Below, in pieces: positions 10,917-58,402 of a stretch of 64,000 nt of DNA. The translations under genes were made by a program, and so were the position numbers. The notes below the pieces were generated by a model. The model saw only the letters and a program-made list of their open reading frames with translations. It was not told the origin of the DNA and searched no databases. The DNA is from Diplonema papillatum (taxonomy: Eukaryota > Euglenozoa > Diplonemea > Diplonemida > Diplonemidae): NCBI GenBank assembly GCA_030068145.1, contig JAPJBO010000865.1:1-64000 (forward strand), written 5' to 3'. Position 1 is the stretch's first letter. Every line of letters begins with the position of its first letter.

Positions 10917-10920
10917 CCAG

Positions 10921-14400: not shown

Positions 14401-14655
14401 TCCCTTCGGAAAAGTTGACCCACACCAAGGACAGTCCCTTCGGAAAAGTTGACTCACACCAAGGACTTTCAAGACCAGTCCCTTCGGAAAAGTTGACTCA
14501 CACCAAGGACTTTCAAGACCAGTCCCTTCGGAAGAGTTGACTCACACCAAGGACTTTCAAGACCAGTCCCTTCGGAAAAGTTGACTCACACCAAGGACTT
14601 TCAAGACCAGTCCCTTCGGAAAAGTTGACTCACACCAAGGACTTTCAAGACCAGT
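11475..14655. repeat. 44-bp satellite array, about 72 units
   Basis: A near-perfect tandem array with unit cagtcccttcggaaaagttg followed by 24 bp ending ctctcaagac. Variants differ at aaaag/aagag, actcacacc/acccacacc, ctct/cttt/ctat and gacc/gatc. Shorter 34-bp units, missing ten bases before the boundary, recur. A five-unit block (four 44-bp units plus one 34-bp unit, 210 bp) repeats, for example with acccacacc at 12449 and 12659 and again near 14209 and 14419, so there is a higher-order structure. Open frames in it are caused by a period not divisible by three combined with absence of stops and are not genes. All units are near identical with no unique spacers, which excludes a CRISPR-like array. 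Confidence 0.95.
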
Positions 14656-15344
14656 CGCTCGTGCAGGTGGGTTTTGCTCATGGAAGGTAGCAACACAGCA
14701 AGAATTGCTAACCGCTTTGTAGCCCACAGAGACTGTGGCAACTTTGATGTGAGCTAACTTATAGTTGTCGCTACTGTCCACGACAGAGGCTGACCTTCGG
14801 GAAGCAAAAGAACCATGCGAAGAAGGCGAGTGCCGCTTAGCGGTTTTCTGTGACAGCAGGGCGGCTAACACTACACACGTCAAGACCAGCGCCGCAGGCG
14901 CGGAAAAATTGATATTGGCGCTTTGTAGTCCACAGGGACTGCGGCAAAGTTGATGCGAGTCAAGTGCGCACTTATGCACTCTGCAGGGTGCTCCTCTTTG
15001 TGGTTGTCACTACTGCCCACCACAGAGAGCAGCAGTCTTCTTGGCAACACGACACGAAACATGTGTATTACACAAGCCAAAAATGCCAGCGCCGCAGGCG
15101 CGGAAAATTTGCCAAGCTATTGGGCCAGTATTGCCCAAAATTGAGGGTGTACGTTGCTAGACCCATGATCCAGAGGTCGTACTGTAGCATCATCCCCACC
15201 CACTGCACTGCCTACAACACACCCACCACCACCACTGCCCACCACACCACCCGCCCACTGCACTACCTCCACGACCTCCCACCACATGACCACCCACTAC
15301 CGCCGCCCCCCCACGACACCACCAGCCGCTGGCTATAACTATAG
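14656..15344. repeat. Spacer with a diverged tandem duplication and a C/A-rich tract
   Basis: Two diverged copies of an approximately 190-bp unit occupy 14728-14915 and 14919-15110. Each starts with gctttgtag and a ccacag...actg stretch and ends with cagcgccgcaggcgcggaaa. A C/A-rich tract almost free of G on the plus strand follows (15186-15335). No gene is visible. Confidence 0.6.
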
Positions 15345-21800: not shown

Positions 21801-24800
21801 TTGCTCGAAGGAGTCGATTTGGTCGTAGATATCGATCTCATCGCCGTGCTGCCCGAAAGGCGCCCACAAGTTGGGCTCGCGGAGAACATCATCAACCACC
21901 ACGACATCGCTGAAGTACTTGGTCACGACTTGTGCACACAGGGAGTCGTACTCCGCTGTTTCGTGTTCATCCACCATCCGGTCTCTGAAAACTCGCTCGC
22001 ATTCATGCTTCCAAAGCCGGATGAAGAGGATCGCATCACCATCATGGAGTGCACGCATCGTGCTCGTCAGTCCTTGGAAGACATTGCTCACCTCTCGGAG
22101 ATTCCAATGGTAGTGGAACTTGGCAGCTGTCGGGAGGAACTGTTCCCGCATAGCCTGCAGGAGCTCTACTGTTGCGTTCACCAGTATCGGGACGAGGTTC
22201 CTCACATGCGAGCTCCAAGACCTCACATGTGCAGCCAGGAGACTCTGGTAGATTGTGGTCAGGTCCTCCCCTCCTGGCATGCTCAGGGCGAAAACCGAAA
22301 ACCAGCGCAGGGCGCGATCTAAAATCGTGAAGGAACCCGCCTTGTGATTCATCGATGCCACAAGCTGGATCCCGGCAACGTGCTTTTCAACCCCAGGGCT
22401 CCCCCTGTCGAACCAGAAGCCGTAGTCGAGGTACTGCCTGAGAAGTGCAATCGGCTCCTGTGTGCCGTATTTGTCGGGGAGCGGCATGTTGAGGTCGTCC
22501 ATGAAGAAAACCAGCTTCTTCCGCCCTGGTGGGTGCCATTTTCTCCCACTGCGCTCGAGATTCGCTTCCAAAACTAATTGGAATGTCCTGGCGGTCGTTT
22601 TCGCATTGAAAGAGGTGTGTCTTGTCATCCAATTGGTGGAGTCCAGCCCAGCCAACTTCGACAGCACGATTTTGCTCTTCCCAGTGCCTGCCATCCCCAC
22701 CAGGAGGACAGGGTGCTGCTGGGTCATGAGCAGCTGGAGCATTTGCTGCATGCGGACTGTTTCCGCAGTCTCGACCAACTGCTCCGACATGGGCAGGTCG
22801 GGGTCTGTCTTGTACTTCGCCACCAACTCATTCCAGGAGCAGAACTCGTGGTGAGTCTCCTTGCTGATGTAGAAGTCGAAGACCTGGTACTTCTCGTCGC
22901 AAATGCGTACCCTGCTCTGCATCTCGCGCACCCACCACTTCGAAAAGGCTGCACGGTAGTCGACACGTCCATCGGAGGCCAGAGCACCACCGAAGGCCCA
23001 GACGAGGGCGAAGCAGAAGTACTTTTCGTACACTTCCTGCGGCGAGCCGTGTGGCACATTGTGCAGCAGCGCGTCGAGGAGGGCACAGAGAGTCTGGACG
23101 AGGCTTATGTCTGCGATTTGCACCACTGTTGCAATCCCCTTTTTCAATTGTTCGAAAACGGATGGCAAGTACGAGTCGAAGAAGGAGTCGAGGTAGTTGT
23201 GTTCACGCTCGTCTTCCCTGCTGAGCAGCCAGCGGTCTACAAATGGGTTCCATCCGACGTCGACGTCGTTGATGTAGAGGATGCCTGCACGTGATACAGT
23301 GGCCGGCGATGCGTTTTGTAGCTGAGAGATTTCGAATACCATCCGCATCGATGGGGTCAGCGGGATTCGGTCGTTGTTGGCGAGAGTGAGCATCTTGTTA
23401 TCGTCCATGACGGTGTTCATTGATTCGATCCATTCCGCGTCAATGATGCCGTCGAGCACGATCCACTTTCGACATGTGTTCGTCTTCGACAAAACGCTGA
23501 ACTCTTTGAAGATGTGCGCCAAGTGTCCTTCCCTCCACTCCTTTGTCTGCTCGTGTGTCGTGCCGTACATCTCGTTCGCAGTGATCGCTTTCGGGTTCAT
23601 AGCTCTCACTTTACACCCACCAGCTTCCTGCAAAAACGCCGCACGAAGCGCGTTCCTGCACTCAGTTTTCCCGCACCCCGCAGGGCCCAGGACGAACACG
23701 GAATGCCGGACACGCAGCAGCTCGTCGAACTGCAGACACTTTTCGACGAAGGTGTCGTTTTCGCCCGCGAAAAGCTGCAGCTTCGCGCATGCCACCCGAA
23801 GGCGGCCCTTCAGCTCCTCGTCGACCTTCCGCGCAACGGCCATCGAAGGAAACAGGGCTTTGATCAGCCCGCGGAATACGTAAACATCGTCTTTGGACAG
23901 TTTCGCTAAGTTCGTGTCCCGCAGGGCTCGGAGGAGGATCAACTTTTCGTCGAGGGTCTGTTCGTCTCTCCGGAGGGTCCCGGCGATGACCAGAACGCTC
24001 TTCACCGCCCGGAGCCCCCAGTCGTAGTGCAGCTGCTGTGAGAGGAGCTCCTTGTTCAGCTTGTAGAGCTGTACGAACTTCAGCGCGAGGCTTTTCGCTT
24101 CGACGAAGCCTTCGGCCGCGAGCAGGATTTCGCAGATGTTTTGGATGTCGGGCACCACCATCGCGCACGGCCGGAACAACGACTTGATGTTTTCGGGCAG
24201 CTCTGTGCGCCCCGCATATCCTGGGTTCATGGTAACAAACGCCCCGCACGTCGGGACCAGCGAGATGTCCTCCTCGTTCGCGAACTTGAAGATCTGCTTT
24301 CGCATGCGCAAGCCGTACAAAATCGACGAAATCTGAGTCGCGACCACGGAGAGCACCTCGATCGAAATCCGGTTGAACTCGTCGAAACAGCCCCAGCACC
24401 CAGACATGGCGAGGCCTTTGAATATGCGGCCCAGACCTTGGTAGTTCATTTGGTCAGAGCAGTTGAAGACGTAGCATGCAATGCCTAGATTCCGCGCGAG
24501 GTCTTTTGTTGTCTCTGTCTTCCCCGTCCCGGCTGGGCCTGCAGGTGCTCCGCCTTGCATCAGCTTCAGAGCTTGGGTAAGAGTGATGTAGCATCTGTCG
24601 GTTAGTTTCGTGACCACCAAACAGCCGCAAAGCCCGACGTACTCGTAGCCATGGGCGAACTCTGAGTCGCAGATTTTGATGACAACACCCTTTGCTTCGT
24701 GCCAGAGGTACCGCAGCTGGCTTTGCCAGGTGAAGTGAGTGTCATTCTCGGCTTTCTCGTCAATGAGCCACTGTATGATGTCGCGGTTGTGCACATCAAT

Positions 24801-27800
24801 GGTGATCAGGTGGACTAACATCGAACGGTCGTTCGTGGACAGCTCCCCGAGGACCAGGCGAATCTCTTCGGACAGCTGCTTTTGCTGCAGCTGCATGTGG
24901 TCCTTCATGGCCAGCTCGTTGCCATCTTCCAGCTGAGCGAACGCCGAGTTCGTCTCCCATGTGAACTGCAGCCGGGAGGCGACGATGACCGCTTGGCAGC
25001 AGCAGTTGAAGATCCACGATATCCTCGGCTGCTCCATGTAGCTGCTGTTCGCCTCATCGATTTTGGCTTTGATCGATGCCCTCACGACATCGATACAGCC
25101 AGACAACCAGTCCTCGACGGCACCTTGGCAAGTGTACTCGTACGCAAGCGGGACCTTCTCTCCCTGGATCGACACGATCCCGTGAACTGTCGATGGCCGG
25201 TCAGGCAAGAAATTGAAGGTGTCGACTGCATCGACAATCTTGCTCATGTGAGTCATGATCTCTTTAGGCTGTGATCCTTTCGACAGAATGTCTACAAGGT
25301 CGGCATCCGCCAAGAAGAAGAACCGTGGAAACAGCCGCTTTTTCGACTCGAGGTAGTCGGCGAGCGCCTTTTCGCACTGCCGGAGGACGTCGAGCACGAT
25401 GCCCAGAACCTCTTCGATGTCGTCGTCGCGCTCGAGAACCTTCTTCAACAGGTCGCTGCAGCAGACGCTGACGACGTTCTCGTGGTGCCTGATCTTGTCC
25501 ATCATCTCGCGGTACAACTCATCAGCGGACTCGAACACTTTGGCGTCGTCGGGCAGTGACACACGGATGTCCTGCGACTTCACAAAAATGGGGTACAGGT
25601 TGGTCCACCGCTTCTGTGCATCCAGCCAAATCAAAAGGGTGGATTCGATCTTACCGAGGTTGTCCATCCATTTTGCCACGGGCTCCTGGAAGTACGCCAC
25701 GAACCGATTTGACTGCATCTGCTGGAGCAGATTTGTGTCCGAATCGAGCTCGTCGCTGATGTCGTCGACTTTGCCCAGTGTCCATGCGGCGAGATTGTCG
25801 TCGTACTCGTACGTAAACTTCTGTGCGTTCCAGGTCGTCGCCACGCGGTTCAGGTTTGTTTCCAGTTGCAGTTCCTTGGTTGCTTTCTCGACCGTGTTTT
25901 GCACGATGTCTTGATGTTCGTGCAGGGAGAGGGACAACAGGTCCAGGAGGGTGCAACTTGTACTGCGGGGGTCGATCGACAAATTCGCATGGTCGGTTTC
26001 CCTCAGGAGCTGGACCCAGTGCCGGTCACGGACGGCTTCCTCCCGCAAGTCTTGAATGAGGGGAAGAGACATCGACATCCGTTTCACGTCCGCCTGCAGA
26101 CCCTCGAAGCACGGCCACGACTTCGTCTTGGTCGGTTGACTTTTCAGCTGCTTCAGAAGTTTGGTCACCTCGTCTGACAGCTCTTCGACGTCGACCGCCA
26201 TGAAGGGTGTCTCGTACCAAAACGCGAATGTGGCCCGCACATGAGCGATCAAGTCCCAGATGCCTTTCAAAAGCCGTAGCTTCTGCCGGCACTCTTTAAG
26301 CAGGCGGAAGTCGGTCTTCTCGAGGTCGAACAGAGCTTGCTCTGAGTTGAATCGGCTGCTTTCGGTCTCCCGACCAAGGAGCTCAAGATGAATGTGGTCC
26401 ATCTCCGTGTACGCAGCGTCTGTGTCGTCCAGATACGAGAATGCGCCCGTGTTGTCGAACATCGCTGCGAAGGAAGACAGGACTTCGAGGAATTCTTGAG
26501 CTTCCTCTTCTACTCTGTCGGCTTCCTGGTCCTGCATTTTGCTGTATTCTTCTCGGATGTTGAGACTCTTCTTGTGCAGGGCCAGCCACGTTTCGGGGCC
26601 GTCGCGCCTCAGGTTCTCCAACTCGGCGACCAGGTCGTCGCTGATGCAGGCCTGCCTCTTCAACATTGCAATCACCTGCCCCATCGGTTCGAACATGATC
26701 TCAACTTTCGGGTTCAGCTGCTTGCACTCTCGCACCCACTTCATCACGGATTTCAGGTCGTCCAGAGATGTGACCTGGATTTCGAGCTCGCTCTCCGCCG
26801 TCTTGACGAAGCTGTACAGCGAGTCGAGTTCGCTGCGGGTCTTGTCGACGAGGTGGTTCACGAAGACGGAGCGCCACTTGGCGCAGCAGTCCCGCAGCGC
26901 GATTTTCATCGGCTTCGCGTCGATCCGCAGCCACGAGCACTGCTGCCCGTCCGGCAGCGACCCGATCGCGTCCTGCACGCGGTTGTACCGACTGATCTCC
27001 GCACTGTAGTCGTCGAGCGACGCGCCGGAGAAGAACGTGCGCTCGAACGACTCGACCGTGATTTCAGCGTCTTCGGGCGGCGGCTGCTGCAGCTGCAGCT
27101 GGCTCTCCGAGGCTTCGGCTAGGTCCGGGGTGTGGTCGTCGATGAACTTCTGGAAGACGCTGTCGAGCTGGGTCTCCCAGAGGTACGCGAAGCCATCGAA
27201 CTGCCGCTGGAAGGCGCGGCACTCGTCGATCGAGGCGCCGACCTGGAGCAGGATCTCGCGGGCCAACTCCTCGCACCGGGTGTGGCCCGCCACCGCCGAG
27301 GAGAACGTGCGGCCGGTGTCGTCGAGCGTCTGGAACACGCCCGCGTACTGCTTGCAGTCGTCGATCCAAGTCTCGACGAGGCTCTCCAACGTCACCCCTG
27401 TGTGGCGAGTGTTCGCCTGCGTCAACGGGGGCGCGAAGTCGCCTCGCACCGGGTTGGCCTTTGTGTCGATGGTGAGTTTGATGTCGAGGAGGGGTATCCC
27501 ACTCTGCTCGCTGAGCCACTCCCCGCTGAGCTGGTTGCGCAGGTTGGCGAGGGCGTGCTCCACACACGCCACGACCAAAGCCTCGCAGCAGCTGTTCACG
27601 TGGGACACGAAGGCGCGCCAGGGCGGGTCGTTTTCGTCGAGCGGCGCGATCGGCGAGGACCGTCGGGCTTTGAAGTCGTTGACGGCCGCGAAGGCGGCGG
27701 CGCAGACCCGCCGCGCCTCCGTCGACTTCGCTGCCGCCTTGCCGCGGCGCCCGGCGTTGTACTCCGCGAATCGGCGCGAGAACTCGTCGCAGGGCATCGT

Positions 27801-30374
27801 CTTCGCCTCCTTCGGGTCCAGCGGCAGGAACGTGTCCTCGGCCGTGAACTGCCGCAGTGCCTTTTCGACCGCGGCGACGGCGTCCCTCAAGCCGCCGATG
27901 GCTGCCGACAGGTCTCCGACCGTCGCCGACACCGACGCCACCCAGCGGCCGACAGACGCGTCGTGCCACGTCAGGTTCCGCATGCCGGAGGCCAGCAGGT
28001 CCTCGCAGTGCGCGAACTCCTCCGCGAAGATGGCCTGCTCCATCGGCAGGACGGTGGCCCGCATCTCGTTGTACTGCCGGCACACCGCCTCGAGTTTGTA
28101 CACCTGGCTCCGCAGCCCCGCCGGGTCTGCGAGGGTGCTCTGCGTCGACGTCGGGACCTTCGATGCGTCCTTCGCCTTGCCGTCGCACTCCTCGATGCCC
28201 TCGATGTACGTCACCTCCCGCAGGAGCTTGGAAAGCTCCTTGTCGAAGTTGACCTGCACTGCGCCGTCGTCGCGCTTCTCGAGAAGCGACAGCTCCAGCT
28301 TCTTCTGCGCGCCGTCGATGCCGCCGACCCAAGTGCCGAGCTGGCTTTGGATGTACTGGTTGATGGTGCCTTGCAGGACGGCGACCAAGGCGGCGGTCGT
28401 CTTCCACTGCTCGGACTGCTGCACCGCCGGCGAGATGAGCTCGTTCATTTTGAGCAGCGGCTGCTCGATGCGGCTGAGAAGGGACCGGGCCCATATCACG
28501 CGTGCGGTCGTCGGCGGCATTCGGTCGTAGATGTCGGCGCCCTGCTTGTCGAAGGCGGCGCCCGGCTTCTGCGGGAACATGCTCCCGTTGGCGCCGGCGG
28601 TGGCCACCAGCTGGCGCTGGAAGCCCCTAGGGTCCTCCAGGCGCCTGTCCCTCGACACGGTGGCGGTGAAGCACTCCTGGGTCGCGAGCAGGTCCTCGTG
28701 GTACGTCCGGATGACGTCCATCTGCCGCTGCTGCCACTCCTGGTGGATCAGCGCCCGGCCCAGGAACCCGTCGAACGAGTCGACCACTTTGAAGAGGTTC
28801 GCGAGGGTGTGGCTGTCTTGCAGCGATGTCACGAACAGTGTCCCCAGCTTCTGTTCAAGCTGCTTCGTCTTCTGGCGGAAGTCTGTGTAGATGTCGTCGA
28901 ACCGTGTGTCCTCGACATCCAGCAAATCAATCCCGCAGTCGTAAAAATCACGGTGTAAACTGACAAAGTCGGTGTACACCGTCCCGATGACAGAGCACGC
29001 TTCGGCACCGTGTGTTCCGCCCACAATCACCCGACCCATTTCGGGGTCCAACCTCCCGAACAGTGTCGCTGTCTCCAGGACATCCAAAAGGTCGTCGCAC
29101 CTCTCTAAAAATCTATCGAGTCGCAGGAAGATGGAATTGTGAAGCTTCCACGGCCCCCTCCGACTCGCTGAGTTGGTTCGTTGCTTGACTTTGAAGTAAA
29201 TCGACTTGAAATGCGTGCACGTGGCAAGGCAGATGCTGAGCCGATGCGACGCATCTTCTGCGTCCAACTGAAATAGCTCGCTGCTATTGATGAACAACCG
29301 GGCACTCTCTATTATGTCGTTGCAGATCTCGCGGAACAGCACGACCAGGCGGGGTACCGTGTTGTAGTACTTCGAGTACTCCCAGAGGAGGAAAATATGG
29401 TGCAGGATTTTTTCGAAGACTTTCGCCTCGACGAGCTCGTCGAAGGAAACGGCAGGGTGGCCAGCCAAGAGCATGAAGGGGCTGTCTTGTCCGTCGCAGA
29501 GGGGTTCCAGAAACCGCAGGTTGCTGCTGGCTTCCAGCGAGGACTGGTGGAGCTCTTCTTGGAGTTGCACGAACGGTCGGTAGTAGCTGCTGTCGGCGTT
29601 CTTCAGGATCGACAGCAGCTTGAGGACAGCCGGCGACGAGAGCTGGACTTCCAACCCGCGGAGGTCGTCGCATTTTTGGCGCCAGAACTTGATCTCGTGC
29701 AGGGCGCTGGGCGTCCCCCGAGTGTCAGGGTGGCTGGATTCGAACAGGGTCGACGGAGACGCGGCTATCGCGTGCCGCATCTGGCTGATCCAACCGACGA
29801 CCACCGACTCGAGTTGGTATACGATTTCCTTGTCCCTGTCGCGCTGCGACAGGTCGACGAGGGTGGGCAGCGGCAGCCGGGACTTTCCCTCGGCGAGCCC
29901 TTGGGTCACCAGCAGCCCGCTGCGGAACCCGTCCATCTTGTCGTTGAGCTGCGGACGGGCAACCTCGGCCACCTGCGCCACGTTTTCTTCGACTTTCAAC
30001 AATGCCGGGTTGATGTGCGACTCCGTGTACAGCAAGCTCTCGAGGGGGTTGGGGTGCAATTCACCGAACTGCACAAGGCGCGAGATGTTTTCGGGCTTCA
30101 CCTGCTTCGCTTCCCTCTTCACGAAGTACAGCACCTTCCTCGCCTTGAAATCCGCGGGGGGCTCCAACAGGAGCTGCAGCACCTGGCCGGTGTACACGAC
30201 GAAGAGGGCGCTGGTTTCCTTGTGATCCAAAAAGTCCTTGAAGACGATGCACGGTTCATCCTCTTCCAGTCGCTCCAAGTCCTTCGGCTTCACCCACGGC
30301 TTGTGCGCCGCCGCAACGCGCTGGATCATCCATGTGATGCGCTTGTCGGTTTGCGAAATGTCATCTCCTTCCAT
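15840..30374 (-). CDS. Axonemal outer-arm dynein heavy chain, beta (DNAH9/11/17) type
   Basis: Motor subunit that hydrolyses ATP to slide flagellar doublet microtubules. Three exons: 30374-18831, 18669-18494 and 18045-15840 (TAA). Introns of 161 and 448 bp have donors GTATGT and GTATGC and acceptors ACACAG and AACAG, and the phases fit (ETT|YAYVSRGLFERHK; PAIADW|CSTASWGAV). The model is about 4641 aa, usual for the family. P-loops lie near residues 1944 (GPAGTGKTET, AAA1), 2228 (GPAGCGKTE, AAA2), 2558 (GMAGTGKS, AAA3) and 2908 (GVGGSGKQ, AAA4); the AAA1 Walker B is CFDEFNRI. The stalk coiled coils and microtubule-binding domain span about 3150-3445. The C-terminus CPLYKTQQRGTGFV...KWIIAGVA matches the beta-chain pattern. 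I chose the ATG at 30374 because family similarity starts there (DKRITWMIQRV); the frame stays open to 31121. Exon 1 alone is 11.5 kb. Confidence 0.93.
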
Positions 30375-32359
30375 GGATACCCCCCTCCTCGCCCTCTGTG
30401 GTAGGTTGTCGCTGCACAAAAGTCGGCAAATACATGGCAGATGCTGGGTGTGTTGAGGTGTCATCTGCAGCTGTGCTTGGAAAGTCGCGAACTGCTCGAC
30501 AAATTTGTTGAAACATTGCACTTGCCAAACATAGTGCCTCATTTGAGTCTCTGACAAGTCCTCACAACTTGCGACTAGGGCCACGGCCGACACCAGCCAC
30601 TTAGCCACCGCATATCCCCTCTCGAGGAGCATGGCAATCAACAGACAAGAGCGAGCTTCGCGCACATCACTCACTTCTGTTGCGCGACACTTCCAAGAAG
30701 AATCGACAGAAAGGTGCCACCGGGCAGCTTGAATCTGCAACTGCATGGGAAACTCCACGGTACTGTGGACCCATTCTTCGTGCAGGCCTTCGCCTTTTTC
30801 GGTCAGACTTGATTGATTGCGTTGCAGAACGAATGAGGACACTGAAACGAACAAGAAACAATAGAAAACCAGGAAAAGAGAAGTAAAACGGATAAAGAAG
30901 AAGAACGCGGGGAAACAAAATTGGGAGGGGGACGGGCTGACTTGTGTGTGGTGTGTGTTCAAGTTTGGTTCAAACGTGATCGTCGATGGTGGGTTGGAAA
31001 CCGCGTTTGTTTTCGCGTTGCTGATCGCCGCGTTTGACACACGAACAAGGACGAGTAGCGTAGTGGGGACGCCTACCCAAACGCCAGTGAGCTGTTCGGC
31101 GTTGCCTGCAAGTCCTTCCACCGATCATTCGAGTGACCCGGCCCTGTGCTACTGGGATAGCACATTACTGTCTAGGGGGGTGGGGGCGCTGCCTCGGTTT
31201 TCCGATGATGCCGTGGCTATCGAGTAGCCCCAGTTTGCCTCAGGGGAGAACCGCCCGAGTCTGCACTGGTTTTGCACCCGCGACGTGTCCCTCTTATTTT
31301 TCCTACCAGCAGATTTCGAGCCGCGGTGGGGGGAGGGACAATGCCGGTTGTGTGTCTGCCCCCTTTTTGTTGGCTCCTTCCTGCTTTCCTTTGAAGGAAG
31401 GAATCAGGGGGTCGGCGGGTGGGGGTGAAACAAAAAAGAAAATTGCAAGCGAGATTCTCAGAGCGAGCCGATTTCTTTTCGAAGAAATAGTGTGCGATTT
31501 GAGCTGCCGACAGCCAGAAGACTGTATATCTCAGTGGTATTCGTGAGCAGCGCAAATGTGGAGTCAACTATTTCCTGCTTTTCCAAAATACTCAGAGGGG
31601 CCGCGTGCGGTGTCTACTTCGACAGAGGCTAGAGGGGGAGAAACGGTACTAGAAATGGGGCTGTCGAACGCTTACGCCCAGCACTGAACCCCGAAGTGCA
31701 CTTGGATCTGCACGGCAACGGCATACTGTCCCCCCCTCTGTTGCTTCTGCAAACCGGCGACCTCCTCGGGCATTTCCTGAACAGCAGGTGCTTATTCAAA
31801 AAGAAAAATGTTTCTTGTGGAGAGAAAACAGGAACTATGAAACTAAAAGGCTCACGCTACCTTCGCGGTGTGAACCGTGCACTCGGCTTGGTGATGCCAG
31901 TGTGCGGCCAACAATGACTGGTTCGGCAGGTGGCCTTCTTTGGTTCTCCTCAGAGGCGGAACATCCACACTGTAATCCCGTGTTCGAACGAGAACAAAAC
32001 GTGGAGTTCTTCCCGGAGAGCCCTTGGTTGGTCACCCTGCTACCTGTCATCGCACCCACTCCATGCGAAGCCCTCGACTCGTTGTTACTTTTCATTTGTA
32101 CACAAATCCTTTTATTTCTTCATCCTGGTGTCACTCTTCATGGCCGCCAGTTGCTGTGAAGTCTTTCGTCACAACAACAGAGCGGCTCTAGGTTATCAGT
32201 GGAACGAGGACGAACGAAAAAAACAGCATTAAACAGGAAAGCAGAACAGGGGGAAAAACACGATCAGTCTAAGTTTAGAAAGAGGAAAGGTGAGAGAGAG
32301 AGAACTGGTTGCCGCAGATCGGACATCAAGCGTGTCTATCAGCGAAACTCACAACGATT
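30375..32359. other. Dynein heavy chain upstream region
   Basis: Nearly 2 kb with no convincing gene. The dynein frame continues open upstream of the chosen start for 249 codons (30375-31121), but the translation includes a hydrophobic, Phe/Ser-rich run typical of pyrimidine-rich non-coding DNA, so it is more likely leader or promoter. A CAG acceptor-like site at 30396 lies 22 nt before the ATG. Nothing recognised between 31122 and 32359. Confidence 0.45.
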
Positions 32360-47183: not shown

Positions 47184-50100
47184 TCACACCTTCCTGCGAT
47201 CTGTGCTCGACTTCGTCGACGGAAGGTACGGGGGCGGAACGCCCTCCCAGTAGTAGAGAAGCACGCGGTACGGCGGGTACTTCTCAGGCGGGACGATGTT
47301 CGAGACGCCCCAACGGACACTCGGCGAGTAGCCCGCCTCCCTCCGCTTCTTGTTCGCCTCTTCCTGCACTTGGTCCAGGACGTGGTGCACAGGCTCGAGC
47401 TGGCGCATGACCGACTTCAGGGATCCTGAAGGCACGAAGAGGACATACGACATGCTATTCGAATCTATCATAGTGTATCTCTGATCCGGGACACCGACCG
47501 GTGTGTGGAGACCGCCTAGTAGGTTGTCTTTGCCGGAGTCTTCACGGTCACTGAAGATGAGAGGTTGCGACCCTGCGCTGTTGAAGGAGTTGAAGTGGAT
47601 GACGGATAAACAAGCGAGGGCCTCGCCGTCGAAAACGCGCTCCGCTCGGATGACAGCCCCGTCCCCCTTCTTCGAGTCTTTGCTCAGGGTGTGCAAGCCG
47701 TGGAAGAACATCCCGCAGATCAACCCCATCGCCGCCAGGAACAGCGGGACCGTGACAATGATCGACCACTCCGACTTGATGATGTCTGTGCCTTCGGAGA
47801 CGAAGACGCCGATCACGACCGCCATCATCGACACCATGAACGAGAACCCGAGGCACTCCAGGTACAGGATCCGGTTGCTGATGCGGTCCTCCAGGTACAG
47901 TTTTCGAAGCGGGAACACGACTTTGTCGTACGTCGGCTGCAGGAGGCGGGCCTCGCGGTGCTGGAACGGCGCGTTGTCGTTCTGGAGCTGCGCGGATGCC
48001 ATCTTCGCGTCGGAGAGCCACGAGAGGATTTGCTCCCGCCACGCGGCTGCTTGCGACGGGTTGTTCGGGCTGATGACGTGCGAGCCCAGGATGGGCATGA
48101 TCCTGTCCGTGAACGTGAGGAGCGACCTCCTCCCGAGGATGCCGAACAGGTGGATTGGAGAACCGACCGAACCGTGCATCTCATCCCTGAACCCCGGGAT
48201 GCATCTCCTCGCAAAGTAGTGCAGGCCCTCCACGAATCGGATGGCAGCCGTGGCCAGCATCGCGCTGGGGAACACAATGCACAGGAAGAACCCGGTCGTG
48301 ACACCCTTCAGCGCGGCGGTCGAAGACGAGTCGTGGACGGTGTTCTTCAGGAACCCCAGCACCCCGGACGGCGATTGCTCGCGCGTCGCGAACATGAGGA
48401 CGTCCAGCGGCACCCGCGACAACGTGTGGTTGAAGTACGGCAGACGGAACATGTGCTGCCCGTGGGTCGTCGGTACAATACCGCCGAGCCACGGGTCGAA
48501 TGCCGGGCGGGGGAGGTTGATGGACGAGACGCTTTGCGCCTTGACGAAGTCTGGGTACGAAGGCTCCGTGTCGTTGAGCATGTCGTGGAAGTTGCACGCG
48601 TCCTCGAGTTGGTGGACGAGGGTCTCGACGATGCCGCGGGTCATCACCGGCGAGTTCCAGCTGTTGCCGGGGCCGACCGCGACTGCGGACCCCGGCGCCA
48701 TCGGGCCCTGCCGGCCCATGCGGCGGGAGAACTCCTGCACCGCGTGGGCCACGTGCTCGCTGCTGATCCGGCCCAGCTGTGAGTCCGGGTCCTGGTAGTC
48801 GCCCCGCTTCGCCGGCAGCGGCGCCGCGCCGTTCTTCGTCGTCGACTGCGTGACTGTCGTCCCGCCGCTGTTGACGGTGTTCGCCGACGCAGCGAGCTGG
48901 TGGCTCCCCTTCGAACCCGACGTGGCTGTGATCACCGTCCGCTTCCCGAGGATGGGGTCCATCCGCGTGAGCTCGTCCTTCGAGTCCTGACTCGGGGCAC
49001 CTCGCCTTATCGAGCTCAGCATGACCAACTCGCCCGTGTCGGTCACCTGGAACTTCGACTTGATGTGGTAGGAAAGCAGGCACGTGAGAGTCGGCAGGAT
49101 GAAGAAGAAGAAAGAGATCAGATCCGCGACCTGCGGCTTCTGCGGGATGAACTTCGGGTCGCCGGTGTCGTTGTACGAGAGGAAGTTTGCGCATTCGATG
49201 CTGTTCAGGTCGGTGATCGGAGGGTCGGCCTCGAGGCAGATTTCGCGGTACGGCGTGTACCAGATTTGGATCAGCGCGAGGGGCAGCGCCTCGGCTATCA
49301 GCGACACCGCCTTCGGAATGAACGTCTTCATCATCCCGAACTTCGTCGTGTGCGAATCGAGCTGCTCGCCTTCCTCGGCCGACGTCAGGGGTCTATCCGT
49401 CCGGGAAAGCCACGTCTCGGACGCGATCAAAAACAGCAAAATGGTGTCCGTCATGAACTCGCCGCCGATCGGGAGCCCGTTGATGAAGCACAGGAACCAG
49501 AACAACCGGTTGTCGCCTCTGCCGACGAAGACCATCAAGCCGTTCGTCAGCGCCGACGAGAGGTTGAAGAGGAGCCAGTTGTGGTAGACGTTGCGGTTGC
49601 CGTACCGGTCCTTCTCCCGGTCGAGCTTCTTCTGCCAGAAGACGTTGCCCATGATGGCGCCGATGATGACGAAGAACACGCCCACTACTGCCACGCTGCT
49701 CGACTTGCACTCGAACGACGACTTCGGAAACCCGCTTTCGAACCCTTCGTCGGCGATGAACCGGGCGTTGATCGGGTCGTCGTAGGCTGCGCAGCCCTTC
49801 GCTATCTCGGGCTCGACCTTGTGCCGGACGAACCACATGAGCAAGTTCTTCATGAGGGTGATCGTCAACTGGTCGCAGACCCAGGCGCCGATGAGTTGGC
49901 GGAAGAACGGGTTGTTGTAGGAGCTGGTCATCAGCTCCGAGAACTGCTGGAGGAAGCTGGTTTTATCGAGGTGCTCGAGCACCGCCGGGGCGACGGTCGA
50001 GTTGCGATACCTGACCAGCATGAACCGGAAGGCGAGGTTGATCACGAAGTGCGACGTGCCGAAGAAGAGGGCGCAGATGAAGTTGGTCCGCGGGTACAGC

Positions 50101-50948
50101 CCCGACATGACGCCGTCCTTCTGCTCGAGCTCGTAGCCCAGCGGCATCATGACCCGGCTGACAGCGAGGGTGACGGTGCCCATGAGCAGGATGCCCACCA
50201 CCTTCATCATCGACCCGATGCGAAGGCCGTCGTTGTGGTGCGTTTCGTCCAGGATCTTCTGCGACTTCAGCATCGTCCCAAGGGTCGTGGTCGGCGTCCC
50301 CGTGAGGGTGTCTCCCACGTAGAAGACCATGTACGCGAGTCCGTACTGCAGCAGCACCCGGGTTCTACCACCGGTGGGGTTGAGGGGAGTGAACGGGAAG
50401 AACATCGCCGCGAAAGCCGCGAACTGGATGAAGGAGCCGAGGACCATGATGTTCGCGATCTTGTGCATCGTGCACTTCCGCAGGTACGAGGCCATCAGGG
50501 GGTCGGTCAGCACGTCGACGCACTTCGAGATCGTGACGACGAGGGCGACTTCACCGGGGACGAGGTTGACGGAGGTGTACCACTGCGTGGCGAAGACAGC
50601 GATCCAGGCGGGCATCGCGAAGGTGCCGAAGAGCTGCGTGGCGGACCACAGGTAGACGACCCACTTCATCGTCTTCTGCATCGTCTGCTCGCTCATGCCG
50701 CGGTACTTGTCGTTCAGGTTCGGGTCCACGTCTTTGCCCGCCGCGTCGGCCGCGGCTTCGGTCGGGAAGTCGGGCTGCTGCGGCTGCTGCTGCTGGGGCC
50801 GCCGGCGGACGCCCTGCCCGGACCCGGCGCCGCTGCCGGCCCAGCCGAGGCTGCTGTTGCTGTAGAGCGAATACGGGGAGCTCGGCTGCGGCGGGCCCCC
50901 GTGCTTCGGCAGCGCGTTGTAGCCCAGCGACGTCATCTCGACGTCCAT
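47184..50948 (-). CDS. MFS transporter of the GPH/MFS_2 (MFSD2/melibiose-carrier-like) type with long C-terminal extension
   Basis: A single-exon membrane protein of 1254 aa, ATG at 50948 (first ATG of the frame, MDVEMTSLGYNALPK) and TGA at 47184. After a Gln/Pro-rich cytosolic N-terminus, residues about 85-640 carry the transporter core: WVVYLWSATQLFGTFAMPAW, a loop with DVLTDPLMASYLRK resembling the conserved D-x2-xDP motif of glycoside-pentoside-hexuronide carriers, then repeated hydrophobic helices to ISFFFFILPTLTCLLSYHI. The family is usually 450-600 aa. Here about 600 extra residues follow, with a Ser/Thr-rich linker and at least three further hydrophobic segments (near 886, 1035 and 1062). 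Substrate cannot be told from sequence; sugars or lipids are known for relatives. A (GT)n run lies just upstream of the start. Confidence 0.75.
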   Translation of the reverse strand: MDVEMTSLGYNALPKHGGPPQPSSPYSLYSNSSLGWAGSGAGSGQGVRRRPQQQQPQQPDFPTEAAADAAGKDVDPNLNDKYRGMSEQTMQKTMKWVVYLWSATQLFGTFAMPAWIAVFATQWYTSVNLVPGEVALVVTISKCVDVLTDPLMASYLRKCTMHKIANIMVLGSFIQFAAFAAMFFPFTPLNPTGGRTRVLLQYGLAYMVFYVGDTLTGTPTTTLGTMLKSQKILDETHHNDGLRIGSMMKVVGILLMGTVTLAVSRVMMPLGYELEQKDGVMSGLYPRTNFICALFFGTSHFVINLAFRFMLVRYRNSTVAPAVLEHLDKTSFLQQFSELMTSSYNNPFFRQLIGAWVCDQLTITLMKNLLMWFVRHKVEPEIAKGCAAYDDPINARFIADEGFESGFPKSSFECKSSSVAVVGVFFVIIGAIMGNVFWQKKLDREKDRYGNRNVYHNWLLFNLSSALTNGLMVFVGRGDNRLFWFLCFINGLPIGGEFMTDTILLFLIASETWLSRTDRPLTSAEEGEQLDSHTTKFGMMKTFIPKAVSLIAEALPLALIQIWYTPYREICLEADPPITDLNSIECANFLSYNDTGDPKFIPQKPQVADLISFFFFILPTLTCLLSYHIKSKFQVTDTGELVMLSSIRRGAPSQDSKDELTRMDPILGKRTVITATSGSKGSHQLAASANTVNSGGTTVTQSTTKNGAAPLPAKRGDYQDPDSQLGRISSEHVAHAVQEFSRRMGRQGPMAPGSAVAVGPGNSWNSPVMTRGIVETLVHQLEDACNFHDMLNDTEPSYPDFVKAQSVSSINLPRPAFDPWLGGIVPTTHGQHMFRLPYFNHTLSRVPLDVLMFATREQSPSGVLGFLKNTVHDSSSTAALKGVTTGFFLCIVFPSAMLATAAIRFVEGLHYFARRCIPGFRDEMHGSVGSPIHLFGILGRRSLLTFTDRIMPILGSHVISPNNPSQAAAWREQILSWLSDAKMASAQLQNDNAPFQHREARLLQPTYDKVVFPLRKLYLEDRISNRILYLECLGFSFMVSMMAVVIGVFVSEGTDIIKSEWSIIVTVPLFLAAMGLICGMFFHGLHTLSKDSKKGDGAVIRAERVFDGEALACLSVIHFNSFNSAGSQPLIFSDREDSGKDNLLGGLHTPVGVPDQRYTMIDSNSMSYVLFVPSGSLKSVMRQLEPVHHVLDQVQEEANKKRREAGYSPSVRWGVSNIVPPEKYPPYRVLLYYWEGVPPPYLPSTKSSTDRRKV

Positions 50949-51601
50949 TGCCGACCCCAGGCCCGCGGCCGCAGGGCGCGCCCGCGGCGAGCCACCCTTC
51001 GGCACTTTCTCCTCCCGGTGTGTGTGTGTGTGTGTGTGTGTGCTACCGACCCGTTTTTACGTGGTGCCTCCCTTCACGGAAGTACGGCCACGGCTGTGTG
51101 CGCGTGTGTGTGGGGTGGGTGTTGTTGCTGTCCGTGTTTTTTCTTGCCTCTGTCTGTTTTTTTTTTTTTTTTTCGTGGAACCGGCCGGCTTTTCCTTTTT
51201 TACTCGCTGTTGTTGTTTTTTCTCTGCCAACCCCTCCCTTTCCTTCACCTCCTGAGTGGCGGTTTTGTTGCTGATTCAGCGAATGTATTCGCTTAACGAG
51301 CTGACGACTGCTAAAAAGACTCACTGCTTCGTTTTCTCCTGCATTGTTCACTCGTCGGATTGGTAAACCCCCAACCACTGTGCCCGGGTAGCCGGTTCAT
51401 CATCGCGAACTACTCTTTCTGCGATTTCTTTCACCCCGTATCTTACAGGCTGGCACCAGGAACAGTATCGAGAAAACAACAACTGGTATGCGGGCTTGCG
51501 ATTCATCGAAGCGCTTCCGGGCCTCCTTTCACACAATTCGTTTTGCTATTCACCCACATGTGACATGCCTTGGCCCCATGCCTGTTCGTCCCTGTCTACG
51601 C
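50949..51601. other. Intergenic region upstream of the MFS gene
   Basis: About 650 bp holding the (GT)n run, T-rich and GTG-rich tracts (51090-51240) and no gene. It serves as promoter of the transporter and 3' flank of the ATPase-nucleotidyltransferase gene. Confidence 0.5.
51018..51042. repeat. (GT)n microsatellite
   Basis: Twelve GT repeats, 70 bp upstream of the transporter start codon, within its leader or promoter. Confidence 0.95.
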
Positions 51602-53608
51602 CTACATGTCCGCGTCGTCCATGGCGCCTGCGTCGTTGCCTACTCTGTCGAACGGTGGCATGATGACCTGCTTCCCCTTGGCAAGCTCTTTGAACACGCC
51701 GAAGAGGACTTCGCAGCGGTCGTCCTTGTCGAGGGGACCCGTGGGCCGCCCGCCGGCCACTCGGGCAGCGAGGACTTCGATGGCCATTCCGCGGAGCTGT
51801 TTGACGCCGGTTCGTTCCTTCCAGACCTTGGCCAGGATGACGACATCCTCGATCTTGGGGTACGCTGCGCGCACGCCGTCGAACCACTTCAACTGAGCTC
51901 GCAGACTATCGGCGGAGGTGGACCTGCCCGGACACGACACTACAATGTCGACGACCCCGAAGTGAGTGTCGTACTGCAGCAGCGTGCTGCCGTTGGGACC
52001 CCCCACATGACCGACGAGGCGAGCGTGCTTGCGCACGGAGTCCTCCGCTTCCTGGAGCTTCTCTTTGGGAACTTCGACGACGATGTCGACGTCCGAATCG
52101 CTGGTTGCGCACCCTTTCTTGATCGAGCCGCCCAGGAGCACGGTGCACCACATGCCCGCAAGCCACTTTTCGATGCGTTCCTTGACGGGTTGGACCTGGA
52201 TGCTATGGTCCAGGCGCTCACGCTCGCAAAGACTGTTCAGTTGATTGGCCGTCATCCACCCGAGGCAGGCTCTTTCCTGCGGCGGACCGTGCTCGGCTGG
52301 CTCGGCTGGGCTCGTCGCACTGTCTGTTGTCGACGACGACGGCGGCGGCGGCGGCGGCAGCTCGTTCACAGTCACCAATCGATCCACTCTTTCGAAGTAC
52401 GGTGCGAGCTGCAAGTCTTTGCCTGCCCAGACGGTGTCCACGTCCGCGTACTTTTGAACAACGGATCCGAAGGTCACCGCCGTTTCCATACGTGTGGACG
52501 TGTGGTACAGTAGCGGTGCCTTCTTGCCCTTGGCTATCGGCTGGTCCGGCAGCTTCGTTCCGACAAGGACCAAGCGTCTATCCTTAGCATCCGAAACGGC
52601 AGACGCGAAGCTCCCAGCTGCCTCCGCGGCGTCGTGGTCCACAATTACTTTTCCGGGGCCGGGATTGAGTACCTGGAAGCCAGAAGGACCCTTCTTCTTT
52701 TTCTGACATTGACTCGTGTTCGGTCTGTGCGGCGGCTCGCGATGTTGCTTCTTTGGTGTTGGCGGTACGGGTGCTTCTTTATAAGCTTTACTGTTGGGGG
52801 GTGCACCAAGGCCATGCTGCTTGTAATGCATCGCCGTTGATAATCCGTAGTGTCCATCCTTCCCCCACACGTTGGAGGCGGGCAGGTTATCGTAAATAAC
52901 CTTCGGATACAGGGTTTCGCAGACATTGCGCAGAATCGGCACCAGCTTCTGGTTCCAAACATCGCTGCTGACCTTGTGTTCACGGCCGTAGTCGATCATG
53001 TCCTCCTGCGGGAAGTTGTAGTCGAAGGTGAACGGAGCGAAACCCTCGACGCGACGACCGTTGATGAACACGCACCCCCTGCCTGGAATTCGCGCACGGT
53101 AAACTTCCAACTGAGCCGTCCGGAGGACAAGATCTTTCTGTTTCCGAACTCGGTCGAACTGCAGGAACCAACTCTTAAGCTCGTCCACAACCGCGGCTGA
53201 GAGTATCGGCGACTGGATTTCCCACCGGGTCCCCGTCTGATTTTTCCCCGGTACGACCTCCGTCTTGAGCCAGATTTCCTCGGTTCCTCGGATCGGGAAC
53301 GTGAACTTTGCCCAGTAGGCCCGAGCCGAGAAACTGGCCCCCAACCGCCGCAGGATTGCGACGCTGTCGAGCAATCCGATCCCGAATGTGCCGATGGTGC
53401 CTTCCCTGCCGCTGGTTTGGCCGACCTGGAAGTCGGAGTCCCTAACGCCGTCGCCTCCGTCCTCGATTATCAACGTCTCGCTGCTCCAAGTCACCACTGG
53501 TTCCTTGCCGCCGTTAGCGTCAATGGAATTAGCGACCAGCTCCAGCAGCGCGAACTTGATCGTCTTGTTCTTGCAGTGGTCTACGGTCAAGTTTAGAGAG
53601 CGTTCCAT
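51602..53608 (-). CDS. GHKL ATPase fused to an OAS/CD-NTase-like nucleotidyltransferase
   Basis: A single-exon gene of 668 aa, ATG 53608, TAG 51602. Residues 1-260 form a GHKL (Hsp90/MORC-type) ATP-binding domain: N-box ELVANSIDA (23-31, Glu23 and Asn27), G1 EDGGDG (49-54), G2 GTFGIGLLDSVA (73-84), then a transducer-like region with VFINGRRVEGFAPFTFDYNF. Lys/Pro-rich linker follows (about 285-320), an unrecognised module (330-430) and a Pro/Ser linker. Residues about 475-668 form a polymerase-beta-fold nucleotidyltransferase: LLGGSIKKG (near 493), DSDVDIVVEV (acidic pair near 505-507), third acid in FGVVDIVVSC (near 552) and a helical end with KVWKERTG and MAIEVLAARV, as in OAS/CD-NTase and CCA-type enzymes. 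All catalytic residues appear intact. Known relatives of the two domains make nucleotide second messengers or remodel nucleic acid/protein complexes; joining them suggests an ATP-gated nucleotide synthase, possibly immune. That role is inference. Confidence 0.85.
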   Translation of the reverse strand: MERSLNLTVDHCKNKTIKFALLELVANSIDANGGKEPVVTWSSETLIIEDGGDGVRDSDFQVGQTSGREGTIGTFGIGLLDSVAILRRLGASFSARAYWAKFTFPIRGTEEIWLKTEVVPGKNQTGTRWEIQSPILSAAVVDELKSWFLQFDRVRKQKDLVLRTAQLEVYRARIPGRGCVFINGRRVEGFAPFTFDYNFPQEDMIDYGREHKVSSDVWNQKLVPILRNVCETLYPKVIYDNLPASNVWGKDGHYGLSTAMHYKQHGLGAPPNSKAYKEAPVPPTPKKQHREPPHRPNTSQCQKKKKGPSGFQVLNPGPGKVIVDHDAAEAAGSFASAVSDAKDRRLVLVGTKLPDQPIAKGKKAPLLYHTSTRMETAVTFGSVVQKYADVDTVWAGKDLQLAPYFERVDRLVTVNELPPPPPPSSSTTDSATSPAEPAEHGPPQERACLGWMTANQLNSLCERERLDHSIQVQPVKERIEKWLAGMWCTVLLGGSIKKGCATSDSDVDIVVEVPKEKLQEAEDSVRKHARLVGHVGGPNGSTLLQYDTHFGVVDIVVSCPGRSTSADSLRAQLKWFDGVRAAYPKIEDVVILAKVWKERTGVKQLRGMAIEVLAARVAGGRPTGPLDKDDRCEVLFGVFKELAKGKQVIMPPFDRVGNDAGAMDDADM

Positions 53609-55940: not shown

Positions 55941-58402
55941 TTAAATGAGCAACCGCGTAAAGATGGAGGTGAGGACGCCCATCAGCAAGGTCAGCGGTGC
56001 CCCATATTTGGTGTAATCTAAAAACTTGTACCCACCGGGCTTCATGACCATGAGGTTCGTTTGGTACCCAAACGGTGTCATGAACGAGCACGATGCACCG
56101 ATAAGCAGCGTAATGACGAAGCGTTTCAGTGATGTGCCTTCCAAGTCGACGATCTCCTTAACGATGGGGTACAGCAGGATAACAGTAGCTTGGTTGCTGA
56201 CGATGCAAGACATGCTCGCGCAGGCGAGGAAGATGAGCAGCAGCACACCAACGGATCCAGCGAAGTCGCCCATGAAGTAGAGCTCCTTAGCGACCGAAAT
56301 GAACCCATCGGCTATCAACTTGGTCACGTTCGTCTTCTTCAACGCACTGCCCACGCCGAAGGCGAAGACGATGGCAAGGAGAATCCGCAGCCGCACCGCA
56401 TTGAACGCGTCAGCCGGCGTCAAGCAGTGGGTGAACACCATCAAAATAGACGCCCCGACGGCGGCGTCGAAGATGTGCAGAGCGCCACTGGCAACGGAGC
56501 CCACCATTGCGCAGAGGATGATACCAGCTATGTACTTACGCACGGAGTCCTTCCTCTTCTCGAACCGCGGCGGTTCACTGTCTGGAACCGGGGCCACCGA
56601 CAGGAAATCGGCAGATGTCCGGTGCGTCTCGAAGAAGTCGGTGTAAGCCTCGATAAGCACACGATCCGCCCCCTTCAAAGGCTGCTCCCGCAGGACACTG
56701 AGCAGCGGAGGTGGTGATTTAGCCTTCTGTTCTTCGCTGTTGGAATTCAAGCTGAAGTCCTGCGAGGCTTCAACCGTGTTGCCCACAGGTGATTCGTCCG
56801 TGTTGGTGGTTGCGATGTCCCCGTCGGTGATAGCCAACGGGTTGCAGAGGGGCGGTTCGCTGCAGGCGTTTTCGGGAACCAACGTGAACAGAGCCGCGTT
56901 GTAAGTCTTTAAGAAGTCAGCCTTGTTCACAGGGACGCCGACCAGCGGGTTGGAGTCAGCGAGGACGGCTTCGAACAAGCGCCTCTTCCTCCTCCCGAGG
57001 CCGAGCAACGCGTATTGCGGGGCTAGCGGCGGCAGGAGCCCGCCGGCGATTTCGATCCTCCGCCGCAATTCCAAGAAGGCAGGCACCGTCGCCAGCAGGA
57101 CCGCGACGTCGCCGGCCTCCAACTGCCGCTGCCCCGCGCTTTCGACGCTTTCGACGCTGTCGGGGCAGCCGCCCGTGAGGACGTGGAGGAGCGTGGCGCC
57201 CTTGGTAGACGTGAGGCCGAGGTTGCTGAGCGTCTCCCCCGCGAGGGGCGCCGTAATCAGCACCTGGATCGCGTACTGCTTCAACGGCGCTTCGGCGGCT
57301 CCTTCCGAGTTCGCCTTATCCTCGGCTGCCTTCCCCGAGCGGTTCGGCAGCAGGTACGGCCCGGCAAGGATTAGGTACAAGCACGACAGCAGCGCCGCCG
57401 GCGCAGCTGCAGGCGTCATCGAAAAGAACCCAAGGTCGAACGGCGGGTTCACCTCGTCCTCCACCAAACCTTGCAGCACCAAGTTCGTCGAAGACCCTGC
57501 GGCTTGCTTTGAGTTAAAGAGTTCTGTTTTCCATCGTTTATGGTGGTTTAGAGGTTCGGTGTTTTGGGATCTCCGGTTGACCATGGCTTTCCGTTAGAAT
57601 TGGATCGAGAGGAACGCTCTATGTCGCAATCCCCACGCAAACGATTCTGGTGTGTTGTGTCACGATTGTCATGTTCAAAGCGGGTAAGGAGTGACGACTT
57701 CGGGGAAGCAACGGGGGTATACATACCAATCATTGTGCATGTCCCACCGAGCAAAGCAGCGAACGAAAGCGGCATGAAGAGCTTTTCGAGCGGGATGCCT
57801 GTTTCACGCGACCATTTCTCTGCTATGGGCATCATGATCATCACGACAGGTGTGTCGTTCAGGAACCCGGATACCGCTGTCACCGGCAATGTCAGACGGA
57901 AGAGAGCCTCGCGCACGGATTTCGGCTTTCCGAGGAGGTGTTTGACCACAAATTGGACCGTCCCCGCTTTCTCAATACCTTTCGCTACCACAAACAGGGG
58001 CCCAGGGGCAAGCGCACTCGTCGATGCAAACCCAGCCCAAGCTTCTGACCGCGTGACGACGCCTGCCAACAACAACACAAGCGTCGACACGACCAACGCC
58101 GACTCGGGCGCCACACCATTTACCATGCTCGTGAGCGACATCAGTGTGGTCCAAATGGAGAACCACGACTCCCACGACAGGGCCTCGGTCCGATCAAATC
58201 CAACACGGCAGGCAGAGCACACAATGCACACAATCGACACTGCGCTGACCCAAGCGACGGTGAGCTTGTACCGTAGCATCCCGCGGAGCAACCGTTGGAA
58301 GTATGTCTCCTGAGGTTGGACACGCGATGTTTCAGACGATTCTTCCATGCTCACCCGGATCTCATTTCTGCTGGCAACTCGCACCTCGATTGGCTCCGGC
58401 AT
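55941..58402 (-). CDS. SLC13/SLT-type sodium/sulfate (anion) transporter with RCK-C domains
   Basis: Two exons, 58402-57727 and 57496-55941 (743 aa), joined by a 230-bp intron with donor GTATGT and acceptor CCGCAG; the junction restores GGTCTMIG|SSTNLVLQG, the conserved anion/Na+ signature of the SLC13/DASS fold. Other family landmarks are LNDTPVVMIMMPIAEKW, PLEKLFMPLSFAALLGG, and in the C-terminal half SNQATVILLYPI and FMTPFGYQTNLMVMKPGGY. Between the two membrane halves are one clear RCK-C/TrkA-C domain (about 290-360, VLITAPLAGETL...LEAGDVAVLL) and the start of a second (SNPLVGVPVNKADFLKTYNAAL), as in algal SLT/SAC1-like sulfate transporters. It should act in the plasma or another membrane. 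Substrate sulfate is by family only. The second RCK-C looks shortened. Confidence 0.88.

Follow-up and report, generated by a model that had tools for sequence, protein, structure and literature searches.

Can one protein unite a GHKL-type ATPase with a nucleotidyltransferase (NTase), and if it does, what might the first enzyme do for the second? The question is raised by a gene on the minus strand of a 64-kb stretch of the Diplonema papillatum genome (GenBank assembly GCA_030068145.1, contig JAPJBO010000865.1, positions 1 to 64,000; here called the window). The gene opens with an ATG at position 53608 and runs through 668 unbroken codons to a stop that ends at position 51602, encoding 668 amino acids. 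The first-pass annotation, which gave no strand, had reported an intact N-box, G1 box, and G2 box together with an intact GGS...DxD motif and third aspartate in one 668-residue frame, and every one of these motifs was located (Table 1). At the level of sequence, the gene is a single frame in which both predicted active sites are intact, and its architecture and motifs are conserved across two paralogs.

A conserved frame with a second full-length copy

The D. papillatum genome (271 Mb, 2910 contigs) was searched with the window protein as the query, the window being contig C865, and matches were found at three places besides the gene's own locus, here called L047, L048, and L049. L047, on contig C64, is a 688-residue open reading frame (ORF) with 42% identity in the genome search and 44% in the alignment, in which the GHKL domain, S5 domain, middle module, and NTase follow in the same order as in the window protein and every motif is present. 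Identity was 60.0% in the GHKL domain, 44.7% in S5, 42.9% in the middle module, and 46.7% and 39.3% in the two parts of the NTase, and it fell to 25.0% and 31.6% in the linkers, residues 249 to 318 and 406 to 450. The ratio of nonsynonymous to synonymous divergence (dN/dS, by NG86) was 0.23 in the GHKL domain (dN 0.39, dS 1.72), 0.38 in S5, 0.55 in the middle module, and 0.29 and 0.32 in the NTase, with dS values of 1.3 to 1.9 that are near saturation. We conclude that the predicted GHKL ATPase and NTase are a conserved two-enzyme pair and not an artefact, because L047 keeps the domain order, all of the motifs, and low dN/dS, and that conserved catalytic domains joined by freely varying linkers are the trace of what is predicted to be a working two-enzyme protein.

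The other two matches were incomplete. L048, on contig C652, is a 429-residue ORF that contains the middle module and an NTase-like domain and has no GHKL domain. Its GGS motif reads GGY, R, T, and H stand in place of G499, D506, and D554, and D508 is kept; two of the three catalytic aspartates are lost, and Pfam finds no NTase in L048. As S495, G499, D506, and D554 are all lost in L048, the active site is kept in both fused copies and lost in the sole unfused relative. L049 is a GHKL fragment with two TGA codons about 1 kb upstream of L047. We note that a partial second copy of the C-terminal sequence lies downstream of the NTase-like paralog, at positions 2332 to 3021 of the L048 locus.

Coding signal was scored with a codon model, for which five further long ORFs on the minus strand served as training set. 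The gene's frame scored above zero in every scoring interval from ATG through stop, and all six frames fell below zero in the adjoining intervals (53850-53700 and 51600-51450). Inside the gene a competing frame scored higher in three intervals (starting at 53175, 52800, and 52050), and farther upstream two plus-strand frames reached up to 3.4. Residues 249 to 310 showed no coding-type codon bias, with a synonymous usage of -0.066 per codon and a G+C content at third codon positions of 0.50; they are rich in proline, lysine, histidine, and glutamine and look like a disordered linker, although they might hold an in-frame intron. The remaining segments were positive in synonymous usage (0.042 to 0.186), and the test is weak because most of these values fall inside the range of 234 overlapping nearby intervals, some of which touch genes (mean, -0.030; standard deviation, 0.061; maximum, 0.162). 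Most of the doubt over the low-bias linker is removed by L047, in which the linker is equally open and poorly conserved.

A GHKL-S5 unit with kin on phages and plasmids

The N-terminal half carries the superfamily motifs of GHKL proteins, namely an N-box of the form ExxxNxxD, a G1 box of the form DxGxG, and a G2 box of the form GxxGxG, and the N-box is kept in L047. Across a 22-row alignment, the glutamate and aspartate of the N-box were invariant and the asparagine was present in at least 90% of rows. A profile of 31 relatives matched residues 3 to 211 with 80.5 bits (E = 4.4e-17 after scaling to 5.8 billion sequences). Residues 5 to 202 matched phrog_6077, a phage family without an assigned function (E = 2.1e-9), and the Pfam model HATPase_c_3 reached 18.2 bits (E = 0.0026), below its cutoff of 25. 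The GHKL profile from alignment A4 found HtpG, Hsp90, and MutL chains in the PDB, the best at 2.9e-7. The family's NRDRN motif at the end of S5 is degenerate here, reading DYGRE with one arginine retained in the A4 alignment, and a lysine after the G2 box that is near invariant in the family is a leucine. The first-pass annotation had likened this half to MORC. That likeness gave way to a nearer one: no MORC match, MORC-specific S5, or CW zinc finger appeared among Pfam matches at E up to 5, and the nearest kin found belong to a GHKL-S5 family of phages, plasmids, and prokaryotes. We conclude that the predicted ATPase is a member of this phage and prokaryote family.

Relatives were gathered as 44 loci (L001 to L004 and L006 to L045), with flanks mostly of 3 to 6 kb. 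By tblastn the plasmid kin gave a best E value of 3e-4, and the phage kin were weaker (E = 0.2 to 0.6). Family alignments yielded 4 viral loci from 330 candidate stretches; further family scans confirmed 14 of 154 prokaryote loci and 18 of 38 viral loci against a bacterial member rather than the window protein, and confirmation against the window protein itself succeeded for none of 93. Like the window protein, the family combines GHKL and S5 domains with a conserved N-box and G2 box, but its C-terminal modules are others, among them HExxH. HExxH was present in 25 of the 32 relatives' ORFs examined, a count in which two of the seven ORFs without it run into the end of their locus, L014 duplicates the L009 plasmid, and L041 and L042 share one tail. 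No HExxH was seen on reading the translation of the window protein, and its match to the family profile ends at about residue 211. The NTase motif was absent from all 44 loci, including their short flanks, when scanned with a pattern that detected the positive control L005, which the first two patterns tried had missed.

Other features of the family were also recorded. The order GHKL-S5-middle-HExxH was seen in L010, L012, L013, L016, L028 to L034, and others, and Pfam metallopeptidase matches in five scanned members of the GHKL-S5-HExxH family were at most weak and below cutoff. Nothing supported equating the sequence beyond residue 205 of the window protein with the family's own middle module, as that sequence scored below zero bits or was not listed. 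Some prokaryotic kin lie near genes for a cytosine methyltransferase, a helicase, or a Piwi protein, which speaks for the two-enzyme switch proposed below; on a Natrinema plasmid (L007), the family member is one gene away from a Piwi-domain protein. Tandem GHKL-S5 units occur in plasmid proteins, with three in Alkaliphilus (L001, 4921-8235) and two plus an incomplete third in Aneurinibacillus (L009, 1411-4287).

A nucleotidyltransferase that leans toward OAS and CD-NTases

GGS, D506 with D508, and D554 make up a complete polymerase-beta-type set. NTP_transf_2 (PF01909; cutoff, 21) matched the whole protein with 24.4 bits, the isolated C terminus with 27.0 bits, and L047 with 27.3 bits. The best PADLOC model was the cyclase PDLC00803, a local match to residues ~459 to 530 (E = 1.7e-7), and a further cyclase model, PDLC00774, matched the helical half alone (residues ~571 to 618; E = 6.9e-4). 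With one control of each kind, human OAS1 also matched PDLC00803, as its third-best model (E = 7.3e-7), and the 143-residue minimal NTase of L005 did not, preferring PDC-S09 models (E = 4.4e-5). A profile of four OAS domains gave the window NTase 6.1 bits, against 1.2 bits for the best of its 300 shuffles. The helical half fell into a weak, nonsignificant register with OAS residues 198 to 328, and the palm is more compact than that of OAS, with 46 residues between D508 and D554. The sequence W..I.A.A.AE..AF that closes both L047 and L048 aligns nonsignificantly with the last residues of OAS; the window protein terminates just short of this tail.

The unrecognised module that the first-pass annotation had placed at residues 330 to 430 exists, at residues ~319 to 405, and recurs in L047 and in L048; its consensus is IVDxNAA...LVLVGTxLP...VYAGxDLxL. 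It had no match in Pfam or PADLOC, and its best PDB match, a chondroitinase (E = 1.1), and that of the three-paralog profile, SEC12 (E = 0.071), are taken as chance. A PIN/NYN-like fold, prompted by the IVDxN...GxDL pattern, found no support from any tool. Because the module accompanies the NTase-like domain even where GHKL is missing, as in L048, it is more likely a part of the NTase unit than an appendage of the GHKL domain.

A possible ATP-gated synthase

We propose, with a probability of roughly 0.4, that the protein is a two-enzyme switch in which an ATP-gated, OAS-like synthase responds to foreign nucleic acid. GHKL proteins such as MutL, gyrase, Hsp90, and MORC undergo ATP-driven dimer closure and thereby move partners or nucleic acid. 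The GHKL-S5 unit would bind ATP and probably close as a dimer like these proteins, the flexible linker would pass the conformational change on to the middle module and the NTase, and the NTase would then make an oligonucleotide product. Most likely, the protein would let each cell respond on its own to foreign nucleic acid, as a self-contained system. GHKL-S5 families in which C-terminal effectors are swapped, including nuclease, TIR, and HEPN domains, are described in the available text of two papers (PMC2292703, PMC3710099), and gating of a synthase is favoured from these parallels, with the NTase as the effector here. It is likewise the parallel with GHKL-S5 effector systems that suggests a defence role. 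A wider claim, which we hold to be rather doubtful, is that the protein could represent an undescribed class of self-contained immune enzymes in Euglenozoa, in which a GHKL engine of phage or plasmid ancestry would close around foreign nucleic acid and so activate the OAS-like synthase of the same protein; the middle module would serve as sensor or effector, and L048 as a regulator or decoy. Both GHKL ATPases and OAS/CD-NTase enzymes recur in immune and genome-conflict systems. Gating of nucleotide synthesis by ATP-driven closure, if real, would amount to a novel means of switching an OAS-like enzyme, in a lineage, the Euglenozoa, not treated from this angle in the published text consulted. 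Two paralogs with intact sites beside one relative with a ruined site make the gating idea directly testable.

Several results weigh against an ATP-gated, OAS-like defence enzyme. PADLOC gave no match for the GHKL part, and only two fused copies are known. For the isolated domain, Pfam listed no match to OAS1_C, SMODS, or Mab-21 (E up to 10); MTPAP-like_central scored 22.9 bits against its cutoff of 27. The window NTase also matched PDC-S09 models (E = 7e-4), and the control L005 itself touched other cyclase models (E = 0.012 to 0.023). The NTase of L047 scored only 5.0 bits with the OAS profile, and one of 300 shuffles of that L047 domain scored 5.2; hhalign probabilities with OAS were 1.1% and 4.9%, which are nonsignificant. 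From the Pfam, PADLOC, OAS-profile, and hhalign results together, assignment of the predicted domain to the NTase superfamily is firm and its affinity to OAS and CD-NTases is moderate. Of the OAS/CD-NTase-like label in the first-pass annotation, the lean survives, as PDLC00803 is shared with OAS1, and membership does not, as none of the three Pfam families was matched; "OAS-like" is used here for a lean.

Euglenozoa are rich in enzymes of the terminal uridylyl and poly(A) polymerase type, and the NTase might instead be a relative of these that tails RNA, with the GHKL part as a partner that remodels RNA or ribonucleoproteins. The MTPAP-like_central score would fit, as would the tail VIMPPFDRVGND, which resembles the nucleotide-recognition end of such enzymes. 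However, that score lies below the Pfam cutoff, drops to 18.7 bits in L047, and is exceeded by a CD-NTase model (29.2 bits), and PAP_assoc was not found in any Pfam scan; we regard RNA tailing as less likely than the gated synthase. Nucleotidylation of protein or tRNA, in the manner of MntA-type minimal NTases and with a GHKL part that recognises or remodels the target, is a poorer candidate still. It would suit the compact palm, the alignment of NF047752 (MntA) to residues 490 to 526 (E = 0.004), and the weak tblastn match to the 143-residue NTase of L005 (E = 0.8), but NF047752 gave 17 bits where its cutoff is 60, the conserved helical half fits PDLC00774, and the window protein has no HEPN match.

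Two further explanations appear far less probable. A decaying, functionless remnant of a mobile or viral gene would fit the many GHKL kin on phages and plasmids (though mostly such collections were searched), the degenerate piece L049 about 1 kb from L047, and a tail shorter than those of L047 and L048. Retention of the catalytic residues despite 42 to 44% identity, and dN values lower than dS for GHKL, S5, the middle module, and the NTase (with dS near saturation), make decay very improbable. A false fusion, by read-through of two neighbouring genes or through an in-frame intron, is suggested by the noncoding-like codon usage of residues 249 to 310, by an in-frame ATG within them (M260), and by the frame breaks that split other genes of the window. 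Yet the frame has no in-frame stop, the coding signal is back at residue ~320 and the next in-frame ATG after M260 is M374, the full-length paralog has the same order with an open and diverged linker, and an in-frame intron would only shorten the linker and leave the fusion standing; we give a false fusion hardly any weight.

Relation to described proteins

Literature searches on GHKL, MORC, Hsp90-like, CD-NTase, and oligoadenylate proteins listed no GHKL-NTase fusion; the first-pass annotation knew of no such pairing. The paraMORC and MORC GHKL-S5 proteins resemble the window protein in joining a GHKL-S5 engine to a variable C-terminal effector, but in the available text they show no NTase fusion and belong mostly to prokaryotic restriction-type operons (PMC2292703, PMC3710099). 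Sacsin, with Hsp90-like ATPase modules and a C-terminal HEPN domain, is likewise a eukaryotic fusion of a GHKL type with an enzyme type, as far as the source is available (PMC3710099), but its partner is HEPN and not an NTase, and NF047352 gave the window protein 19.3 bits against a cutoff of 50. The nearest published parallel found, within the accessible part of that report, is one animal TRADD-N clade with fusions to oligoadenylate synthase and sacsin domains, among others; there the two domains are named as partners of TRADD-N and not as fused to one another (PMC8195603). The window protein had no TRADD-N match in Pfam.

OAS, cGAS, and CD-NTases share GGS...DxD and the third aspartate with the window protein, the best hidden Markov model is one also matched by human OAS1, and the paralog's tail aligns weakly with OAS; unlike them, the window protein has a compact palm and no match to OAS1_C, SMODS, or Mab-21, and is fused to a predicted ATPase. 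Noncanonical poly(A) and uridylyl transferases belong to the same NTase superfamily but differ in that MTPAP-like_central stays below cutoff and PAP_assoc is not matched. According to a survey of eukaryotic CD-NTases, OAS-like proteins are present in 8 of 12 supergroups; in its main text, as available, the terms Discoba, Euglenozoa, and kinetoplastid do not occur (PMC10732462).

A search of 5.8 billion protein sequences with the full-length protein (E up to 1e-3) returned only the protein itself among the best 7999 candidates scored, and residues 1 to 260 (E up to 1; 2748 candidates) did the same; the C-terminal domain (E up to 10; 2850 candidates, in a length range that excluded the protein itself) returned none. 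The full-length search missed L047 as well, so coverage of the D. papillatum genome in this database is poor, and its silence says little about other eukaryotes. By sequence, the PDB gave no match to the full protein (E up to 5) or the C terminus (E up to 10), and the three-paralog NTase profile found unrelated chains only (best E = 0.5). Viral contigs searched with the full protein and plasmids searched with human OAS1 gave no match. We conclude that both domains are known and that their combination is new as far as the literature and searches of poorly covered eukaryotic proteins show.

Table 1. Features of the GHKL-NTase gene (window positions)
Feature	Position	Strand	Basis
Whole coding sequence	51602..53608	-	Single open frame, 668 aa; paralog L047 with identical architecture
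GHKL (Bergerat-fold) ATPase, predicted, residues 1-110	53279..53608	-	phrog_6077; 31-member profile; HATPase_c_3 below cutoff; paralog identity
N-box E23-L-V-A-N27-S-I-D30	53519..53542	-	Invariant E, N, D in query and 10 relatives
G1 box D50-G-G-D-G-V55 (D50, G52, G54)	53444..53461	-	Alignment with relatives and paralog
G2 box G73-T-F-G-I-G78 (G73, F75, G76, G78)	53375..53392	-	Alignment with relatives
S5/transducer-like domain, residues 111-210	52979..53278	-	Profile match reaching residue 211
Tail of GHKL-S5 unit, residues 211-248	52865..52978	-	Group-B profile to residue 230; 48.5% identity in paralog
P/K/H/Q-rich linker, residues 249-318	52655..52864	-	25.0% identity in paralog; 249-310 without codon bias
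Middle module, residues ~319-405 (IVDxNAA ... LVGT ... VxaGxDLxL)	52394..52654	-	42.9% identity in L047
Second linker, proline/serine-rich, residues 406-450	52259..52393	-	Paralog alignment
NTase palm, predicted, residues 451-560	51929..52258	-	PF01909 above cutoff; PDLC00803 cyclase
GGS of NTase, residues 493-495	52124..52132	-	Motif, paralog alignment
Catalytic DxD, D506 and D508	52085..52093	-	Motif, paralog alignment
Third catalytic Asp, D554	51947..51949	-	Motif, paralog alignment
NTase helical region and short tail, residues 561-668	51605..51928	-	PDLC00774 cyclase; weak OAS register

Other features of the window

The D. papillatum genome is described, in the available part of its report, as 280 Mb in 6181 contigs, with genes that are likely co-transcribed and 41% of which bear introns (PMC10161547). 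Within the window, 15 of the 22 ORFs of at least 250 residues are on the minus strand, all seven on the plus strand overlap a longer minus-strand ORF, and every gene with a Pfam match is on the minus strand. Polypyrimidine tracts were considered as evidence of trans-splicing and rejected: 106 were counted on the plus strand against 78 on the minus strand, and none of the latter falls between the GHKL-NTase gene and the next gene. Rfam had no match anywhere in the window.

Positions 15840-31121 of the minus strand hold the gene for an outer-arm dynein beta-type heavy chain, as two ORFs separated by a stretch of frame breaks (introns or assembly errors). In the PDB it matched 9e5c_7b (3513 bits) and 9y6s_5c (3493 bits) ahead of the next chain (2510 bits); the first two are presumably trypanosomatid structures. 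A citrate-transporter-like (CitMHS) gene at 55941-58402, also on the minus strand, is present as two overlapping ORFs in different frames. The minus-strand ORF at 47184-51005 (1273 residues) appears transporter-like by eye and had no match in Pfam (E up to 0.01) or the PDB (E up to 0.1). Between the dynein gene and repeated DNA, at 11475-14656, a 44-bp unit is repeated in tandem about 74 times, with 92% matches. Exact or near-exact direct duplications pair 1-427 with 10387-10812, 9205-9504 with 10920-11219, 8949-9208 with 9935-10194, and 7383-7682 with 8534-8833.

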